A stretch of DNA of 64,000 nucleotides, taken from Bryobacteraceae bacterium (lineage in GTDB: Bacteria; Acidobacteriota; Terriglobia; Bryobacterales; Bryobacteraceae). Of this stretch, positions 5,305 through 45,196 are shown in pieces; position 1 is the stretch's first letter, and every line of letters starts with the position of its first letter. Under the pieces are notes generated by a model that searched no databases, was not told the origin of the DNA, and was given only the letters and a program-made list of their open reading frames with translations. The position numbers and the translations under genes were made by a program. Where the stretch lies: positions 186,001 to 250,000 of the forward strand of contig JAIEMJ010000013.1 of the NCBI GenBank assembly GCA_019752335.1. Reading direction: 5' to 3'.

Positions 5305-6144
5305 ATGTACATACTCCGTCTCCACTGTCAGGACAGCGCGGGAATCGTGGCCGCTGTCGCCACGGCGCTGAGCGTTTGCGGCTGCAATATCGAAGAGTCC
5401 GCACAATTCAACGATCCGCTGTCCGGCCGCTTCTTCATGCGCGTGGTCTACGCGCCGCTCGAAAATGGGGCGCAGAAACTCTTCGCCACCCACTTCGAAG
5501 CCATCGCCGTAAAGTTCGCCATGGACTGGCGCATCGATAATCAGGCCGAACCCGTGCGGACGCTGATCCTGGTTTCGAAAGAAGACCACTGCTTGAACGA
5601 CCTGCTCTACCGTTGGCGCACCAACCACCTGCAAATCGCCATCACCGGCGTCGCGGCGAACCACGAAACCAATCGGAAGCTGGTGGAGCACCACGGTCTG
5701 CCGTTTCACTACCTGCCCATCACCGCGGCGACCAAGGGGCAACAAGAGGCGCAGATCGCCGAACTGGTGGAGCAAACGAATTCGGAATTGATCGTCCTCG
5801 CCCGCTACATGCAGATCCTGTCGGACGAGCAGTGCCGGCGCTTCGCGGGCCGGGTGATCAACATCCACCACTCGTTTCTGCCGAGCTTCAAGGGCGCGAA
5901 ACCGTATCACCAGGCCTACGAACGCGGCGTCAAAATCATCGGAGCCTCCGCCCACTTCGCCACGGCCGACCTGGACGAGGGGCCGATCATTGAGCAGGAA
6001 ACGGTCCACGTGGACCACACCCACACCCCGCAAAACATGCAGGTACTAGGCCGCGATACGGAAGCGCGCGTCCTCGCCCGCGCCTTGCAGCTTTACACCG
6101 AACGCCGCATCTTCCTGCACGGCATCCGGACGGTGATTCTGTAG
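5305..6144 (+). CDS. purU: Formyltetrahydrofolate deformylase
   Basis: 279 aa. Hydrolyses 10-formyl-THF to formate and THF, balancing one-carbon units and supplying formate for PurT-type purine synthesis. An N-terminal ACT domain (about 1-80, starting YILRLHCQDSAGIVAAV) is followed by a formyltransferase-like catalytic domain (about 90-279) with INIHHSFLPSFKGAKPYHQA and ADLDEGPIIEQ, containing the conserved Asn-His and Asp of the formyl-transferase fold. Full family length. It begins 3 bases after the FAD oxidoreductase and is followed by metH, another folate enzyme, after a 57-base gap that holds a separate promoter. Confidence 0.95.
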   Translation: MYILRLHCQDSAGIVAAVATALSVCGCNIEESAQFNDPLSGRFFMRVVYAPLENGAQKLFATHFEAIAVKFAMDWRIDNQAEPVRTLILVSKEDHCLNDLLYRWRTNHLQIAITGVAANHETNRKLVEHHGLPFHYLPITAATKGQQEAQIAELVEQTNSELIVLARYMQILSDEQCRRFAGRVINIHHSFLPSFKGAKPYHQAYERGVKIIGASAHFATADLDEGPIIEQETVHVDHTHTPQNMQVLGRDTEARVLARALQLYTERRIFLHGIRTVIL

Positions 6145-6158
6145 CCGAATCATTCACC

Positions 6159-6188
6159 TATCAACCCATCAGGATATGTTGATATAAT
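6159..6188 (+). promoter_or_regulatory. metH promoter with operator-like inverted repeat
   Basis: A perfect -10 box TATAAT (6183-6188) lies 13 bases before the metH ATG. Inverted half-sites TATCAAC (6159-6165) and GTTGATA (6178-6184), 12 bases apart, cover the expected -35 and -10 positions, i.e. two faces one to two helical turns apart, as expected for a dimeric repressor. The -35 hexamer itself is poor (ATCAAC at 17-base spacing). Candidate regulator: a methionine/S-adenosylhomocysteine-responsive wHTH protein, by inference only; none is encoded nearby. Confidence 0.55.
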
Positions 6189-6203
6189 GGCGTAAGCCAT
6201 TAT
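6184..6203 (+). promoter_or_regulatory. Perfect inverted repeat at the metH start codon
   Basis: ATAATGGC (6184-6191), loop GTAA, GCCATTAT (6196-6203): an 8-bp perfect palindrome that begins in the -10 box and ends inside the metH ATG (6202). As RNA only the right part would be transcribed if the start site is near 6195, so it is more likely a DNA protein-binding site than a hairpin in the message. Confidence 0.45.
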
Positions 6204-9200
6204 GCTGACACGTCTTGAACGCCGCCAAGCTCTCTACGATTCCCTCGCCTCACGTATCCTCATCATTGATGGAGCGATGGGGACCATGGTGCAGGCCAAG
6301 AACCCCACCATTGAGGATTGGGGCGGAAACCAGTTCGAAAACTGCACCGAGAACCTGCTCTTCACCCACCCGGAATGGATCGTCGATATCCACCGGCAGT
6401 ACCTCGACGCCGGGGCCGACATCGTCGAGACGGACTCTTTCGGCGGCCACCCGGTCACGCTGGCCGAGTTCGGCCTAGAAGACAAGTGGTACGAGGTAAA
6501 CGCGATCTCGGCGCGGCTGGCGCGGGAGGCCTGCGACGCGGCCAAGGGTCCGCGATTTGTGGCGGGTTCGATTGGGCCCACCACGAAGGCGATCACCGTG
6601 ACGGGCGGCATTACGTTCACCGATTTGCGCGAAGGGTACTACCGGCAGTCGAAGGCGCTGGTGGAGGGTGGGGCGGACATTCTGCTCGTCGAAACCTGCC
6701 AGGATACGCGCAATGTGAAGGCGGCGCTGCTGGCCATCAACCAACTCGGCCGCGAGTTGGGCGAGAAGATTCCCACCATGGTGTCGGGCACGATCGAGCC
6801 GATGGGGACGATGCTGGCTGGCCAGACGGCCGACGCTTTCTACGCTTCCATCGCGCACCTGGACATTCTGTCGATCGGGCTGAACTGCGCCACGGGCCCG
6901 GAGTTTATGACGGATCACATCCGGTCCTTGCATGAACTCGCCACGTCGCGCATCTCCTGTTACCCGAACGCGGGACTGCCGAACGAAGAGCTGAAGTACA
7001 CGGAGACGCCGGAGTCCTTGGCGCGGCAGCTTGAGAAGTTCGCCGACCATGGCTGGCTGAACATCGTCGGCGGCTGCTGCGGGACGAATCCGGGCCACAT
7101 CCGCGCCATCGCGCAGATGGCGCAAGGCAAGGCGCCGCGCCGGATTCCGCCGGTGAATCATCGCGCGCTCTACACGGGTATTGAGTTAGTGGAAGCCGAC
7201 GACGCCACGCGCCCGCTCATCATCGGCGAGCGCACCAACGTGATCGGCTCGCGGGCGTTCAAGGACCTGATCGCCAAGGAGATGTGGGAAGAGGCCACCG
7301 ACATCGCCCGCCAGCAGGTGCGCGGCGGCGCGCACGTGATCGACGTCTGCCTGCAATCGACGGATCGCGACGAGATCAAGGACATCCCCTTCTTCTACGA
7401 GAAGCTCATCCGCAAGGTGAAGGCACCGATCATGATCGACACCACGGATCCGAAGGCCGTGGAACTCGCCCTCACCTACTGCCAGGGCAAAGCCATTATC
7501 AACTCCATCAACCTGGAGGACGGCGAGGAGAAGTTCGAACAGTTGTGCCCCATCGCCAATAGTTACGGGGCCGCGCTGGTGATCGGCACCATCGACGAAG
7601 ATCCCCTGCAGGCGCAGGCCTTCACCCGTGAACGTAAGCTTGCGGTCGCGGAGCGCTCCGTCGCCGTGGCGACGGGCAAGTTCGGCGTGAAGGTGGAGAA
7701 CATCATCATTGACCCGCTGGTGTTCCCGTGCGCCACCGGCGACGAGAACTACATCGGCGGCGCGGTGGAGACCATTGAGGCCTTGCGCTTGATCAAGGAG
7801 AAGATTCCCTTCGTGAAGACGACGCTCGGTGTCTCGAACATCAGCTTCGGCCTGCCCGCGGCAGCGCGCGAAGTGGTGAATTCGGTATTCGTCTACCACT
7901 GCACGCGCGCCGGGCTCGACCTGGCGATCGTGAACGCCGAGAAGCTCGAACGCTTCGCCAGCATTCCGATGGAAGAGCGGCAGATGGCCGAAAGCCTGCT
8001 GTTCAATACTCCCGTCAGTGAGATTCCCGAGGGGCATCCGCAGGCGGCGTTGCTGCGTTCCGCGCAAGGCAAGGACGATTGGCGCACGCAGAGCAAAGAA
8101 GAGAAAGCGGCCGTGAATCAGTTCCACATCGCGGCCATCACGGCGCACTTCCGCGGCCGCAAAGGCAAGGAGAAGGTGAAGGCGGCTGACCTGCCGCTCG
8201 ACGAGCGCCTGGCCACCTACATCATCGAAGGCTCTAAGGACGGCTTGATTCCGGACCTCGACCTGAAGCGCGCCGAGCCCGGCGTGGCGCCGCTCGACAT
8301 CATCAACGGACCGCTGATGAAGGGCATGAGCGAAGTGGGACGGCTCTTCAACAACAACGAGCTGATTGTGGCCGAGGTGCTGCAATCGGCCGAGGCGATG
8401 AAGGCGGCGGTGGGCCATCTGGAGCAATTCATGGAAAAGGCCGACACCGCCACGCGCGGCAAGTTCCTGCTCGCCACCGTGAAGGGCGACGTCCACGACA
8501 TCGGCAAGAATCTGGTGGAGATCATCCTCTCGAATAACGGCTATCAGGTGATCAACCTGGGCATCAAGATTCCGCCGGAGACCCTGATCAACGCCTATCG
8601 CGAACATCAACCGGACGCCATTGGCCTCTCCGGGCTGCTGGTGAAAAGCGCGCAGCAGATGGTGATTACGGGTGAGGACCTGAAGAATGCTGGCATCGAG
8701 GTACCGCTGTTCGTGGGCGGCGCGGCGCTGTCCGAGCGCTATACGCAGTCGAAAATCGGGCCCGCTTACCACTCGCCCACCATCTACTGCAAGGACGCCA
8801 TGACCGGCCTACGCCTGATGAACGAGGTGATGGAGCCGGAGACGCGCGAGAGCGTACTGAGCAAATTCAGGTTTACGTACGTGGAGGCGCCCGAGGCCGC
8901 CGCGCCCGTAGAAGCGCCGGCCGTGGTCACCACACGCTCGAAGCAAGTGCGCACGGACGTGCCGCTGCAGCCGGCGCCTTACCTCGACCGCAAGCAGCGC
9001 GACGTGCCGCAACTGGCTGAGATGTGGGGCTACATTAACCCGTTCATGCTGTACGGCAAGAACATGGGCTTTAAGGGCAACTTCGAAACGCGGCTCGCCG
9101 AGCGCGACGAAAAAGCCATCGAGCTCTACCACCTGATGGAAGAGGTGAAGGAGTGGTCCACCGGCTTCATGAAGGTGCGGGCGCTGTGGCAGTTCTATGA

Positions 9201-9777
9201 GGCCGAGCGCGACGGCAACTCGATCCACCTGTTCACGCCGGGCGGACAGTCGCCGTATCATACGTTCCATTTTCCGCGCCAGACGGTGCGCGGCGAGAAC
9301 AACCTGTGCCTGTCGGACTTCATTCTGGATCCGGTGAACGGCCAGCGCGATCACGTCTGCGTGATGGCGGTGACGGCCGGGGGTGGGGTCCGCGAGCGGG
9401 CGGAGGAAGCCAAGGCAAAGGGCGAGTACATCAAGAGCGTCGGCCTGCTGGCGCTGGCGACCGAGACCGCCGAAGCCACGACCGAGTGGCTCCATCGCCG
9501 CATCCGCGAGGACTGGGGCATCGGCGACCCCGCCACCATGACCATGAAGGAGCGTTGGACGTCGCGCTACCGCGGCAAACGCTATAGCTTCGGCTACGGA
9601 GCGTGTCCGAACATGGAAGACCAACTCGGCATCTGGAAGCTGATCCAGCCGGGCGACATCGGCATTCAGTTGACCGACGGCTTCATGATGGAGCCGGAGG
9701 CGAGCGTCAGCGCCCTGGTCTTCCAGCATCCCGACGCCTGCTACTTCAACGCCGCCGGTGGCGACGAGCCGGAGTAA
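6202..9777 (+). CDS. metH: Cobalamin-dependent methionine synthase
   Basis: 1191 aa, full length against about 1200 for the family. Transfers methyl from 5-methyl-THF via cob(I)alamin to homocysteine. Domains in order: homocysteine-binding barrel (about 5-320) with the three zinc cysteines C229 (GLNCATGP) and C292/C293 (GGCCGTNP); pterin-binding barrel (about 345-600, LIIGERTNVIGS); B12 cap and Rossmann domain (about 660-890) with the cobalt-ligating DVHDIGKN near 763; AdoMet reactivation domain (about 920-1190) with RYSFGYGACP near 1135. All four modules are in one chain, so no separate activation protein is needed. No Shine-Dalgarno precedes the ATG; with the -10 box so close the message is nearly leaderless. 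Follows purU, another folate enzyme. Confidence 0.97.
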   Translation: MLTRLERRQALYDSLASRILIIDGAMGTMVQAKNPTIEDWGGNQFENCTENLLFTHPEWIVDIHRQYLDAGADIVETDSFGGHPVTLAEFGLEDKWYEVNAISARLAREACDAAKGPRFVAGSIGPTTKAITVTGGITFTDLREGYYRQSKALVEGGADILLVETCQDTRNVKAALLAINQLGRELGEKIPTMVSGTIEPMGTMLAGQTADAFYASIAHLDILSIGLNCATGPEFMTDHIRSLHELATSRISCYPNAGLPNEELKYTETPESLARQLEKFADHGWLNIVGGCCGTNPGHIRAIAQMAQGKAPRRIPPVNHRALYTGIELVEADDATRPLIIGERTNVIGSRAFKDLIAKEMWEEATDIARQQVRGGAHVIDVCLQSTDRDEIKDIPFFYEKLIRKVKAPIMIDTTDPKAVELALTYCQGKAIINSINLEDGEEKFEQLCPIANSYGAALVIGTIDEDPLQAQAFTRERKLAVAERSVAVATGKFGVKVENIIIDPLVFPCATGDENYIGGAVETIEALRLIKEKIPFVKTTLGVSNISFGLPAAAREVVNSVFVYHCTRAGLDLAIVNAEKLERFASIPMEERQMAESLLFNTPVSEIPEGHPQAALLRSAQGKDDWRTQSKEEKAAVNQFHIAAITAHFRGRKGKEKVKAADLPLDERLATYIIEGSKDGLIPDLDLKRAEPGVAPLDIINGPLMKGMSEVGRLFNNNELIVAEVLQSAEAMKAAVGHLEQFMEKADTATRGKFLLATVKGDVHDIGKNLVEIILSNNGYQVINLGIKIPPETLINAYREHQPDAIGLSGLLVKSAQQMVITGEDLKNAGIEVPLFVGGAALSERYTQSKIGPAYHSPTIYCKDAMTGLRLMNEVMEPETRESVLSKFRFTYVEAPEAAAPVEAPAVVTTRSKQVRTDVPLQPAPYLDRKQRDVPQLAEMWGYINPFMLYGKNMGFKGNFETRLAERDEKAIELYHLMEEVKEWSTGFMKVRALWQFYEAERDGNSIHLFTPGGQSPYHTFHFPRQTVRGENNLCLSDFILDPVNGQRDHVCVMAVTAGGGVRERAEEAKAKGEYIKSVGLLALATETAEATTEWLHRRIREDWGIGDPATMTMKERWTSRYRGKRYSFGYGACPNMEDQLGIWKLIQPGDIGIQLTDGFMMEPEASVSALVFQHPDACYFNAAGGDEPE

Positions 9778-12259: not shown

Positions 12260-13657
12260 CTAGGCGTTAATGGCGAGCCCGTGGACGGCGTTGAAGGCCT
12301 CGCCGAGCGCCTCGTATTGGGTGGGATGCGCGTGGATGGTATTCATCATCGTCTCCACCGTAGCTTCGGCTTCCATGGCGGCGACAGCCTCGGCAATGAG
12401 TTCGTAGCCATGGTGGCCGATGATGTGGACGCCGAGGATCTCGCCGAACTTCTGGTCGCTGACGATCTTCACAAAACCCTCGTGGTGGCCGACAATCGAC
12501 GCCTTGCTGTTCGCCGAGAAGGGGAACTTGCCCACCTTCACCGCGAAGCCCTGCGCCTTAGCTTGCGCCTCCGTCAGGCCGACGCTGCCGATGCCGGGCG
12601 CGGTGTAGGTGGCGCCGGGGATGCGATTGCGCTTGATCGGCGTCACCGGCTTACCGGCAATGTGCGCAATGGCCACCATGCCTTCCGCCGTCGCCACGTG
12701 CGCGAGCTGCGGCGTGCCGGCGACGACGTCGCCGATGGCGTAGACGCCCGGCTCACCGGTCTGCTGATTGGGACTCACCTTAATGAAGCCACGATCCAAC
12801 TCAATGCGCGTGCCTTCGGCGCCAATGTTTTCCGTATTCGGCTTGCGGCCCACGGCGATCAGCAGCTTGTCGAACTGCATCATCTCTACCTTGCCGTTCG
12901 CCAAGGTGACTTGCAGCTTCACGCCGGAGCCCGTGCGTTCAATGTTCTCCGCCTTCGCGCCGCACTCGACGCGGATGCCGATCTTCTTGAAGCAGCGCTC
13001 CAGTTCCTTGCTCACCTCTTCGTCTTCCACGGCGACCAGCCGGGGCAGCATTTCGAGGATCGTCACTTCGGAGCCGAAGCGGCGAAAGATGGAGGCGAAT
13101 TCGCAGCCCACGGCGCCGGCGCCGATGATGCCGAGGTTCTTGGGCACGCTCTGCAGATTCAGGATTTCGATGTTGGTGAGGATGAACTCGGGGTCGGACT
13201 TCAAGCCCGGAATCATGCGCGCCTCGGAGCCCGTGGCGATCACGACTTTCTTCGTCTCGATGATCTTCTTCGAGCCGTCCGCCGCGGTGACTTCCACCTT
13301 GCCCGGCCCGGCTAGCTTGCCGTAGCCCGCCAGGACGTCCACCTTGTTCTTCTTCATCAGAAACTCGATGCCCTTGGCGTGCTTCGAGACGATCTGCCCC
13401 TTCCGCGCGACCACCTTGGGATAGTTGAGCCGCGGATTCTGGCATTCGACGCCCTCGTCTTCGCCGTGGACAAAGTAGTCCCAAACGTCGGCCGAATGCA
13501 GCAGGGCCTTGGTAGGCACGCAGCCCACATGCAGGCAGGTGCCGCCGAGTTTGGGGTCTTTTTCGACCATTGCCGTCTTCAAACCATACTGGCCGGCGCG
13601 CACAGCAGCCGAATAGCCGCCCGGACCGGAACCGATAATCACCACGTCGTAGGACAT
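12260..13657 (-). CDS. lpd: Dihydrolipoyl dehydrogenase (E3)
   Basis: 465 aa flavoprotein that reoxidises dihydrolipoyl groups with NAD+. FAD motif VVIIGSGPGGYSAAV (about 5-19), redox disulfide C41/C46 in GGTCLHVGCVPTKA, NAD-binding GIIGAGAVGCEFASI (about 177-191), second FAD site YAIGDV, and the C-terminal dyad in IHAHPTQYEALGEA. All catalytic residues present; normal length. First gene of the lpd-lipB-sucB operon. A weak -10-like TACACT lies 8 bases before the ATG, and the divergent sigma-factor gene starts 57 bases away. Confidence 0.96.
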   Translation of the reverse strand: MSYDVVIIGSGPGGYSAAVRAGQYGLKTAMVEKDPKLGGTCLHVGCVPTKALLHSADVWDYFVHGEDEGVECQNPRLNYPKVVARKGQIVSKHAKGIEFLMKKNKVDVLAGYGKLAGPGKVEVTAADGSKKIIETKKVVIATGSEARMIPGLKSDPEFILTNIEILNLQSVPKNLGIIGAGAVGCEFASIFRRFGSEVTILEMLPRLVAVEDEEVSKELERCFKKIGIRVECGAKAENIERTGSGVKLQVTLANGKVEMMQFDKLLIAVGRKPNTENIGAEGTRIELDRGFIKVSPNQQTGEPGVYAIGDVVAGTPQLAHVATAEGMVAIAHIAGKPVTPIKRNRIPGATYTAPGIGSVGLTEAQAKAQGFAVKVGKFPFSANSKASIVGHHEGFVKIVSDQKFGEILGVHIIGHHGYELIAEAVAAMEAEATVETMMNTIHAHPTQYEALGEAFNAVHGLAINA

Positions 13658-44089: not shown

Positions 44090-44155
44090 GGCAGTTTTGT
44101 TGGGGCACTTCCCATAGCGCCCGACTTTGGGTAAACTAGAAGAGTCACCCCGTGC

Positions 44156-44229
44156 TGGGAGATCGTTCAACGGTAGGACAGCAGACTCTGACTCTGCTTA
44201 TCGGGGTTCGAATCCCTGTCTCCCAGCCA
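44156..44229 (+). tRNA. tRNA-Gln (anticodon CTG)
   Basis: Cloverleaf assembled by hand: acceptor TGGGAGA (44156-44162) with TCTCCCA (44219-44225); D stem GTTC/GGAC; anticodon stem GCAGA/TCTGC around loop CTCTGAC with anticodon CTG; T arm CGGGG-TTCGAAT-CCCTG; discriminator G44226 and encoded CCA (44227-44229). A -10-like TAAACT lies at 44132-44137. The next coding start is 21 bases downstream. Confidence 0.97.
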
Positions 44230-44250
44230 CTCCCCCCCTCTACCTCTTTC

Positions 44251-44700
44251 ATGGCCATGACCGAACAGCAGCTCCGCGAGCGCATGCGTAAGATCGCCGC
44301 GCTCTTTGAGGGCGCGAAGACGGCGGGCGAACGGGAAGCCGCCATGGCGGCGATGCGGCGCGTACAGGAGTCCTTGGATACGATCAGTCCAGGACAGAGC
44401 CGTCCCGCGAGCGGTGAGGAACCGTTGATTGAGATGCAGTTCTCGCTGGGCGACCAATGGCAGCGCCGGCTGTTTTCGGCCCTGTGCCGCCGATACGGGC
44501 TGGTGCCCTACCGGTACCGGCGTCAACGGCGCACCACATTGATGCTGCGCGTAAAGCAGAGCTTCCTGGACCGGATTCTTTGGCCGGAATACGTCGAACT
44601 GCGCGACGCGCTGTATCAATACCTGCTCGAAGCGACCGAGCGCATCATTCGGGAAGAGGTCTTTAACGACGCCAGCGAGGCGCAGGAACGCCCTGGCTGA
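44251..44700 (+). CDS. Small helical protein, DUF2786-like N-terminus
   Basis: 149 aa from the ATG at 44251; a longer in-frame form would run through the tRNA and is rejected. The N-terminal 40 residues (MRKIAALFEGAKTAGEREAA) resemble the DUF2786 helix pair; the rest is basic and arginine-rich (RRYGLVPYRYRRQRRTT), maybe nucleic-acid binding. Function unknown. Ends 7 bases from a convergent gene. Confidence 0.65.
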   Translation: MAMTEQQLRERMRKIAALFEGAKTAGEREAAMAAMRRVQESLDTISPGQSRPASGEEPLIEMQFSLGDQWQRRLFSALCRRYGLVPYRYRRQRRTTLMLRVKQSFLDRILWPEYVELRDALYQYLLEATERIIREEVFNDASEAQERPG

Positions 44701-44707
44701 GCGCGCC

Positions 44708-45196
44708 TTACTGCTTGTCGAAAACGGTCTTCGTGACCACATCGCCCATGGGCGTACCGGTCATGGTGCGTTGGACGGACATCGTCTTGCCGTCCGCCGA
44801 AACTTCCCACTTCTCGGAGAGGCCAATCGTCATGCCCTGCACCTCCCGCTTCGACGTGATGGCGATCTGACTACCGTCCCACTTGGCGACGCTCTTCACC
44901 TCGCCCATCTGATTCTTGTTGGTGCTTTCGCTGCCATCCAGCTTGTACTTCATGTCGGTGGAGGCCGTACCGCGCTCGCCGGTCGTGGTGGACTCGACGC
45001 GCATCTCGGTTTCGCCCTTCTGGACGATCTTCTGGGTGAGCTTATCGGGTACCATCATCGGCGGCATTTGTCCGAAGTCGCTCTTGGCTTTGTTCATTTC
45101 CCAGGTACCGGAAAAATTCGGCTTCTCGGCGGCCCAGGTGGAGACGCTGGCCACGGTGAGGGCCAAGCAGAAGAAAGTAGATCTGGTCAGAGTCAT
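44708..45196 (-). CDS. Secreted lipocalin-like Acidobacterial protein
   Basis: 162 aa. Signal peptide about 1-22 (ending STWAAE). The mature part opens PNFSGTWEMNKAKSDFG, the repeated start motif of a small secreted beta-barrel-like family abundant in Acidobacteriota, and continues with alternating beta strands (TDMKYKLDG, VKSVAKWDGSQIAITSK). No catalytic motif. Function unknown. Confidence 0.75.
   Translation of the reverse strand: MTLTRSTFFCLALTVASVSTWAAEKPNFSGTWEMNKAKSDFGQMPPMMVPDKLTQKIVQKGETEMRVESTTTGERGTASTDMKYKLDGSESTNKNQMGEVKSVAKWDGSQIAITSKREVQGMTIGLSEKWEVSADGKTMSVQRTMTGTPMGDVVTKTVFDKQ

Follow-up and report, generated by a model that had tools for sequence, protein, structure and literature searches.

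What controls metH, the gene for the cobalamin-dependent methionine synthase, in a Bryobacteraceae genome is the question raised by a few dozen crowded bases in the 64,000-nucleotide stretch of DNA analysed here (the window). The gene (6202-9777, + strand) encodes a full-length protein of 1191 residues in which five Pfam domains were matched (TIGR02082, 1095.5 bits, cut-off 1010.85), and lies 57 bp downstream of purU (formyltetrahydrofolate deformylase; 5305-6144, + strand; TIGR00655, 322.5 bits, cut-off 285.95), on the same strand. A first-pass annotation had placed between them an operator nested in a promoter, a second palindrome and a near-leaderless start without Shine-Dalgarno sequence, and all the elements that it listed are where it had put them. 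Reading of the sequence finds TATCAAC (6159-6165) and GTTGATA (6178-6184) on either side of a 12-base spacer, a TATAAT (6183-6188) separated by 13 bases from the metH ATG (6202-6204), and no Shine-Dalgarno-like run before that ATG. The spacer is dyad-symmetric as well (cc-ATC-ag-GAT-at), and ATC-N10-GAT is present twice in the resulting 26-bp dyad (6159-6184), in frames staggered by 8 bp. The TGA directly before TATAAT (6180-6182), which had gone unmentioned, completes an extended -10 element, TGATATAAT (6180-6188, + strand), whose TATAAT begins at position 25 of the dyad and shares two bases with it. A second inverted repeat (6184-6203) consists of ATAATGGC (6184-6191), the loop GTAA (6192-6195) and GCCATTAT (6196-6203); given the span of its right arm, it reaches from the -10 to the AT of the metH ATG. 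The reading favoured here, at a probability of about 0.8, is that 6159-6188 is a repressible metH promoter whose dyad would be bound by a SahR-like regulator and released by S-adenosylhomocysteine (SAH).

A first indication of what the dyad is came from its distribution in the 7.2-Mb genome. TATCAAC-N10..14-GTTGATA occurs once; TATCAAC-N12-GTTGATA, to which the metH site is an exact match, occurs in five places at up to two mismatches (vs two for the reversed control). The sole place with one mismatch (C7:95878-95903) is on another contig than metH, in the 65-bp gap between two divergently transcribed genes. One is ahcY, encoding SAH hydrolase (TIGR00936, 638.3 bits), and the other, sahR, encodes a 309-residue regulator with an ArsR helix-turn-helix (PF01022; 7.7e-13, residues 13-58) and a methyltransferase domain (PF08241; 8.1e-23, residues 149-244). 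ArsR-methyltransferase proteins from 11 plasmid records share 30-35% identity with this regulator. Adding the inner ATC/GAT to the motif and allowing three mismatches leaves metH and the sahR/ahcY gap as the sole matches in the genome (control 0); metK and metF have no site genome-wide at this threshold, and the motif that they had been expected to share was thus not seen there. The genus mate, the other of the two genomes compared in the genus, likewise has exactly two sites, one on the sahR side and one before metH (control 0). A chance dyad that is no operator would fit the sporadic occurrence of the motif before metH in relatives (see below), but is hardly credible given two places in 7.2 Mb that are both at methionine-cycle genes, one of them beside a regulator gene, and given the same two-place pattern in the genus mate. 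These motif searches, together with its score against the family matrix described next, make it almost certain that the first palindrome is an operator, and the proposal that it serves the methionine cycle is supported by its partner site, both in this genome and in the family.

Strong matches to the regulator (E below 1e-60) were found in 50 of 81 family genomes; 55 matched at 1e-15, five of which have weak methyltransferase-domain matches and were not counted as sahR genomes. Between sahR and ahcY, TATCAAYRTATCNNGATTNNTTGATA or a variant close to it is present in 29 of the 30 family loci that were read; the remaining locus, L139, showed no ahcY. Methyltransferase motif I (ADLGAG[ED]G) was found in 30 loci, with E in 29 and D in one. 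Against a matrix built from the 29 sahR/ahcY sites, which themselves score 28.0-44.9, the metH site scores 36.8 (36.3 when the genus's own sites are left out) and the next best place in the window 10.2. A site with at most three mismatches was found in 45/50 family genomes with sahR vs 3/31 without, and the reversed control in 0/81 (the counts 50, 45/50 and 3/31, and the 3/38 given below, were tallied by hand from the search tables). Farther afield, 30 of 199 sampled genomes of the phylum match the regulator at 1e-40. In two further families, nine loci (51-61% identical) were all found beside ahcY, their best sites scoring 26.0-39.7; at a greater distance, 17 of 19 loci (35-42% identical) showed no ahcY within the sequence stretch examined. 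The distant ArsR-methyltransferase genes of loci L187-L204, mostly away from ahcY and often with an ATC...GAT palindrome at their own start, are perhaps a paralogous, self-regulated family.

Conservation of the family operator spans 24 bp (positions 2-25), and this raises the alternative that a SamR-like regulator, sensing S-adenosylmethionine (SAM) and repressing when SAM is high, binds the same operator. A 24-bp core is what has been described for SamR, the SahR palindrome being 20 bp, and ATC-N10-GAT is common to both (available text of PMC4239095). The targets argue otherwise: the commonest one here is ahcY, whereas no SAM-cycle gene apart from metK was found in the SamR regulons covered by that text, and in this genome metK is without a site. 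A SamR-like regulator is for these reasons considered improbable.

The SahR-like reading is also consistent with where the operator stands relative to the promoter. In the 29 loci, the hexamer closest to TATAAT, read in the sahR direction, has its first base at operator position 25 (mean of 4.45 TATAAT matches out of 6, and at least 5 in 12/29 loci), and the TATAAT of the window stands in this very register. The operator is 17 nt from the ATG at metH and 16-19 nt in 22/29 sahR genes; in the genus's own sahR genes, unlike at metH, the start follows the operator by 27-28 nt and TAGGAT occupies the -10 register. Operator match, -10 register and distance to the ATG are those of family sahR promoters, which makes the metH promoter SahR-like as far as its sequence goes. 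Computation establishes what the operator is, that it is linked to sahR/ahcY, and its promoter register.

That metH has a promoter of its own, as first claimed, gains from its relatives. The 110 metH loci collected yielded 96 distinct upstream regions (two without start, one too short, two with late starts and nine duplicates having been dropped), in which TGnTAnnnT was found near the metH start in 22/96 vs 2/96 farther away, and TAnA[AC]T in 50/96 vs 10/96. These figures bear on another possibility, namely that most transcription of metH enters from purU by read-through, with a roadblock at the operator and a fold of the second repeat in the RNA that hides the start codon. The short gap and common strand would suit such an arrangement, as would the stable fold of the read-through RNA (6145-6230; minimum free energy -23.7 kcal/mol, z -3.56), but a perfect extended -10 in the sahR-promoter register and the clustering of such elements before metH in relatives make it very unlikely.

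Transcription from this promoter is predicted to start at A6195 or G6196, by the general spacing between a -10 element and its start, leaving a leader of 6-7 nt. The near-leaderless start proposed in the first-pass annotation is nothing special here. TGnTAnnnT was found just before the start in 6/46 predicted genes of the window (called by a simple rule based on open reading frames and on G+C at third positions, taking the earliest start available) vs 0/46 in each of two control windows, suggesting that short leaders without Shine-Dalgarno sequence are common here. Extended -10 motifs lie close before starts, for example upstream of 12260-13657 (-), 44152-44700 (+) and 44708-45196 (-), Shine-Dalgarno-like runs are scarce across the window, and near-leaderless promoters look common in the genome. 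Leaderless genes have been described in all three of the Acidobacteria surveyed, at an average of 13.3%, in the accessible part of Zheng et al. (2011; PMC3160421).

At metH itself the operator has a patchier history than beside sahR. A strong site before metH was present in 3/38 and absent in 35/38 of the family sahR genomes examined (about 350-490 bases around the metH start in about 20 of them; G011, whose metH is at a contig edge, is not among the 38). Conservation at metH is therefore sporadic, and metH would belong to the regulon in some lineages only. The idea that the operator is conserved before metH throughout the family was rejected on the same count, and the expectation that the palindromes would be conserved in relatives holds for the first of them at sahR/ahcY and only sporadically at metH. 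Strong metH sites outside the genus were found in G065 (matrix score 33.8), L055 (37.3) and L080 (27.4), all in genomes that carry sahR (L055 belonging to G278 and L080 to G279); L055 and L080 are the two with such a site among 80 relatives. A weak metH site in G055 (L003) was rejected as a SahR site, with a score of 21.0 and 14/26 identity to the sahR-side site of its own genome, 44 of 48 other sahR-side sites matching it better. In another genome, G022, a one-mismatch site (L174:672-697) overlaps the start codon of a homocysteine-methyltransferase-like gene preceding metH; no sahR match was found in that assembly.

The metH sites resemble the sahR-side sites of their own genomes. In L055 and L080 the sahR-side sites share the particular centres of the metH sites, and among 49 sahR-side sites that of the same genome is the unique best match to the metH site in G065, G278 and G279. 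In the genus mate (G071) one of the 49 beats the own site (26 vs 25 of 26) and one equals it, and in the window's genome the own ahcY site matches the metH site at 22/26, which is not distinctive, one other genome being higher and ten equal. Over these five genomes (G055 left out), 0/100,000 random pairings reached the observed total, a resemblance beyond chance. Eighteen of the sites had been added as sahR/ahcY sites for this comparison, 17 lying beside a sahR match and that of G060 on another contig; in G278 and G279 the site is beside sahR, the presence of ahcY being outside the comparison. The metH of the genus mate is only 44-45% identical to that of the window and non-orthologous to it, the window's type of metH being absent there. 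At the genus mate's gene (L121; G071:C60, 3-1856, - strand), a SahR-like operator was seen with a TATTAT in the same register. An operator before two metH genes about 44% identical offers a handle on how regulation is kept, or re-acquired, when the gene differs.

The second palindrome had been taken, with the first, as a sign of two regulators or two binding modes, and this fared less well: the repeat is single-copy in the genome and absent at the genus mate's metH and at the 29 sahR/ahcY operators, whose flanks, on both sides, hold no hairpin above 5 bp. The 25-base stretch from the extended -10 to the ATG also occurs only once in the genome at up to three mismatches. A repeat of 8 bp was reached in 2/100 shuffles of a 48-base region (loops of 3-12) and in 0.2% of 500 shuffles of a 59-base region (loops of 3-10), and such repeats are found in 11/729 intergenic-like windows of relatives, where they are commoner than in shuffles. 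A perfect 8-bp hairpin stands behind the operator in three of seven operator-bearing upstream regions (the window, G065 and L055), with unrelated sequences, and is absent in G071, L080, L003 and G022. This comparison, made after the hairpins had been spotted by eye, hints that they may be a structural element. Since the left arm lies upstream of the predicted start of transcription, any role in RNA would need read-through. An intrinsic terminator was rejected, no run of T following the repeat. In L030 (from G038, a genome without sahR match), a perfect inverted repeat of 11 bp, with three bases in its loop, lies directly ahead of the metH ATG and overlaps the -10, resembling the window's second palindrome in layout, and long GC-rich inverted repeats were seen by eye right before the metH start in L067 and L085.

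A more speculative scenario, possible if rather doubtful, is that SahR regulons in Acidobacteriota expand through copies of the sahR promoter cassette (operator, fused extended -10, about 17 nt and ATG), which would have come to stand before metH several times independently, even where sister species have unrelated metH genes. In some lineages a hairpin unrelated in sequence would have been inserted behind the operator to give a second level of control, and the two overlapping ATC-N10-GAT frames would allow two regulator dimers to bind.

In the mechanism proposed for the repressible promoter, a SahR-like dimer would bind the 26-bp dyad and cover the -35 region together with the opening bases of the extended -10; once bound, it would bar RNA polymerase from the metH promoter. 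When SAH accumulates, the regulator would let go; metH, ahcY and sahR would consequently be expressed together, and their co-expression would clear SAH and remake methionine. Derepressed transcription would begin near 6195, with the leader of 6-7 nt. Binding, repression, the effector and the transcription start are inferred, repression and the role of SAH being carried over by analogy with the proteobacterial protein. SahR of Proteobacteria is reportedly an SAH-responsive repressor. Its repression and SAH response are restated in passages of PMC8877191.

Control by a riboswitch, which the first-pass annotation had also discounted, was rejected: an Rfam search of 6050-6350 that admitted E values as high as 10 yielded three matches, of which none is a riboswitch and none comes near a gathering score, and Rfam models found no riboswitch in L122, L121, L166 or L055. 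This suggests that the methionine/SAM cycle is controlled by a protein and its operator rather than by a riboswitch in these common, little-studied soil bacteria. With a motif this sharp, found at just two places in 7.2 Mb, targets in other genomes should be predictable. Among the open-access papers listed, no description of a SahR-type switch in Acidobacteriota was found: the two about this regulator, PMC4239095 and PMC8877191, treat Proteobacteria, and 'Acidobacteri' occurs in neither. The text of PMC11427291 has 'sahr' once and 'acidobacteri' 19 times.

How, then, does this switch compare with known systems? The fused promoter recalls TA-led genes, whose TANNNT box is located some 12 bp upstream of the start codon (Zheng et al. 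2011, PMC3160421, in part); the metH promoter differs in the fusion of its -10 to an operator and in its predicted leader of 6-7 nt. SamR of Xanthomonadales, a distant SahR homologue, shares with the present system the 24-bp palindrome, ATC-N10-GAT and metH among the targets (PMC4239095, in part), so that palindrome length fits SamR, whereas regulon content, with ahcY the commonest target and metK lacking a site, does not. The closest likeness is to SahR, an ArsR-type regulator with a methyltransferase-like domain from Proteobacteria (Leyn et al. 2014, PMC4239095, in the portion available): both systems have an ArsR-HTH/methyltransferase regulator, an autoregulatory site (predicted), ahcY and metH as targets and an ATC-N10-GAT palindrome, and operators stand here, as expected of SahR, at the regulator's own gene and at SAM-cycle genes, in the sahR-ahcY gap and before metH. 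The differences are the phylum, operator conservation that extends across 24 bp, vs 20 for SahR (PMC4239095, same portion), a metH target confined to some lineages and, in this genome, no site at the SahR core targets metF and metK, its two places at up to three mismatches being elsewhere; 'core' in that account denotes targets shared by more than 70% of genomes, with no requirement on each genome (PMC4239095, same portion). Judged on its sequence features, the system is very likely SahR-like with a longer operator, rather than SahR outright, and a known type of switch.
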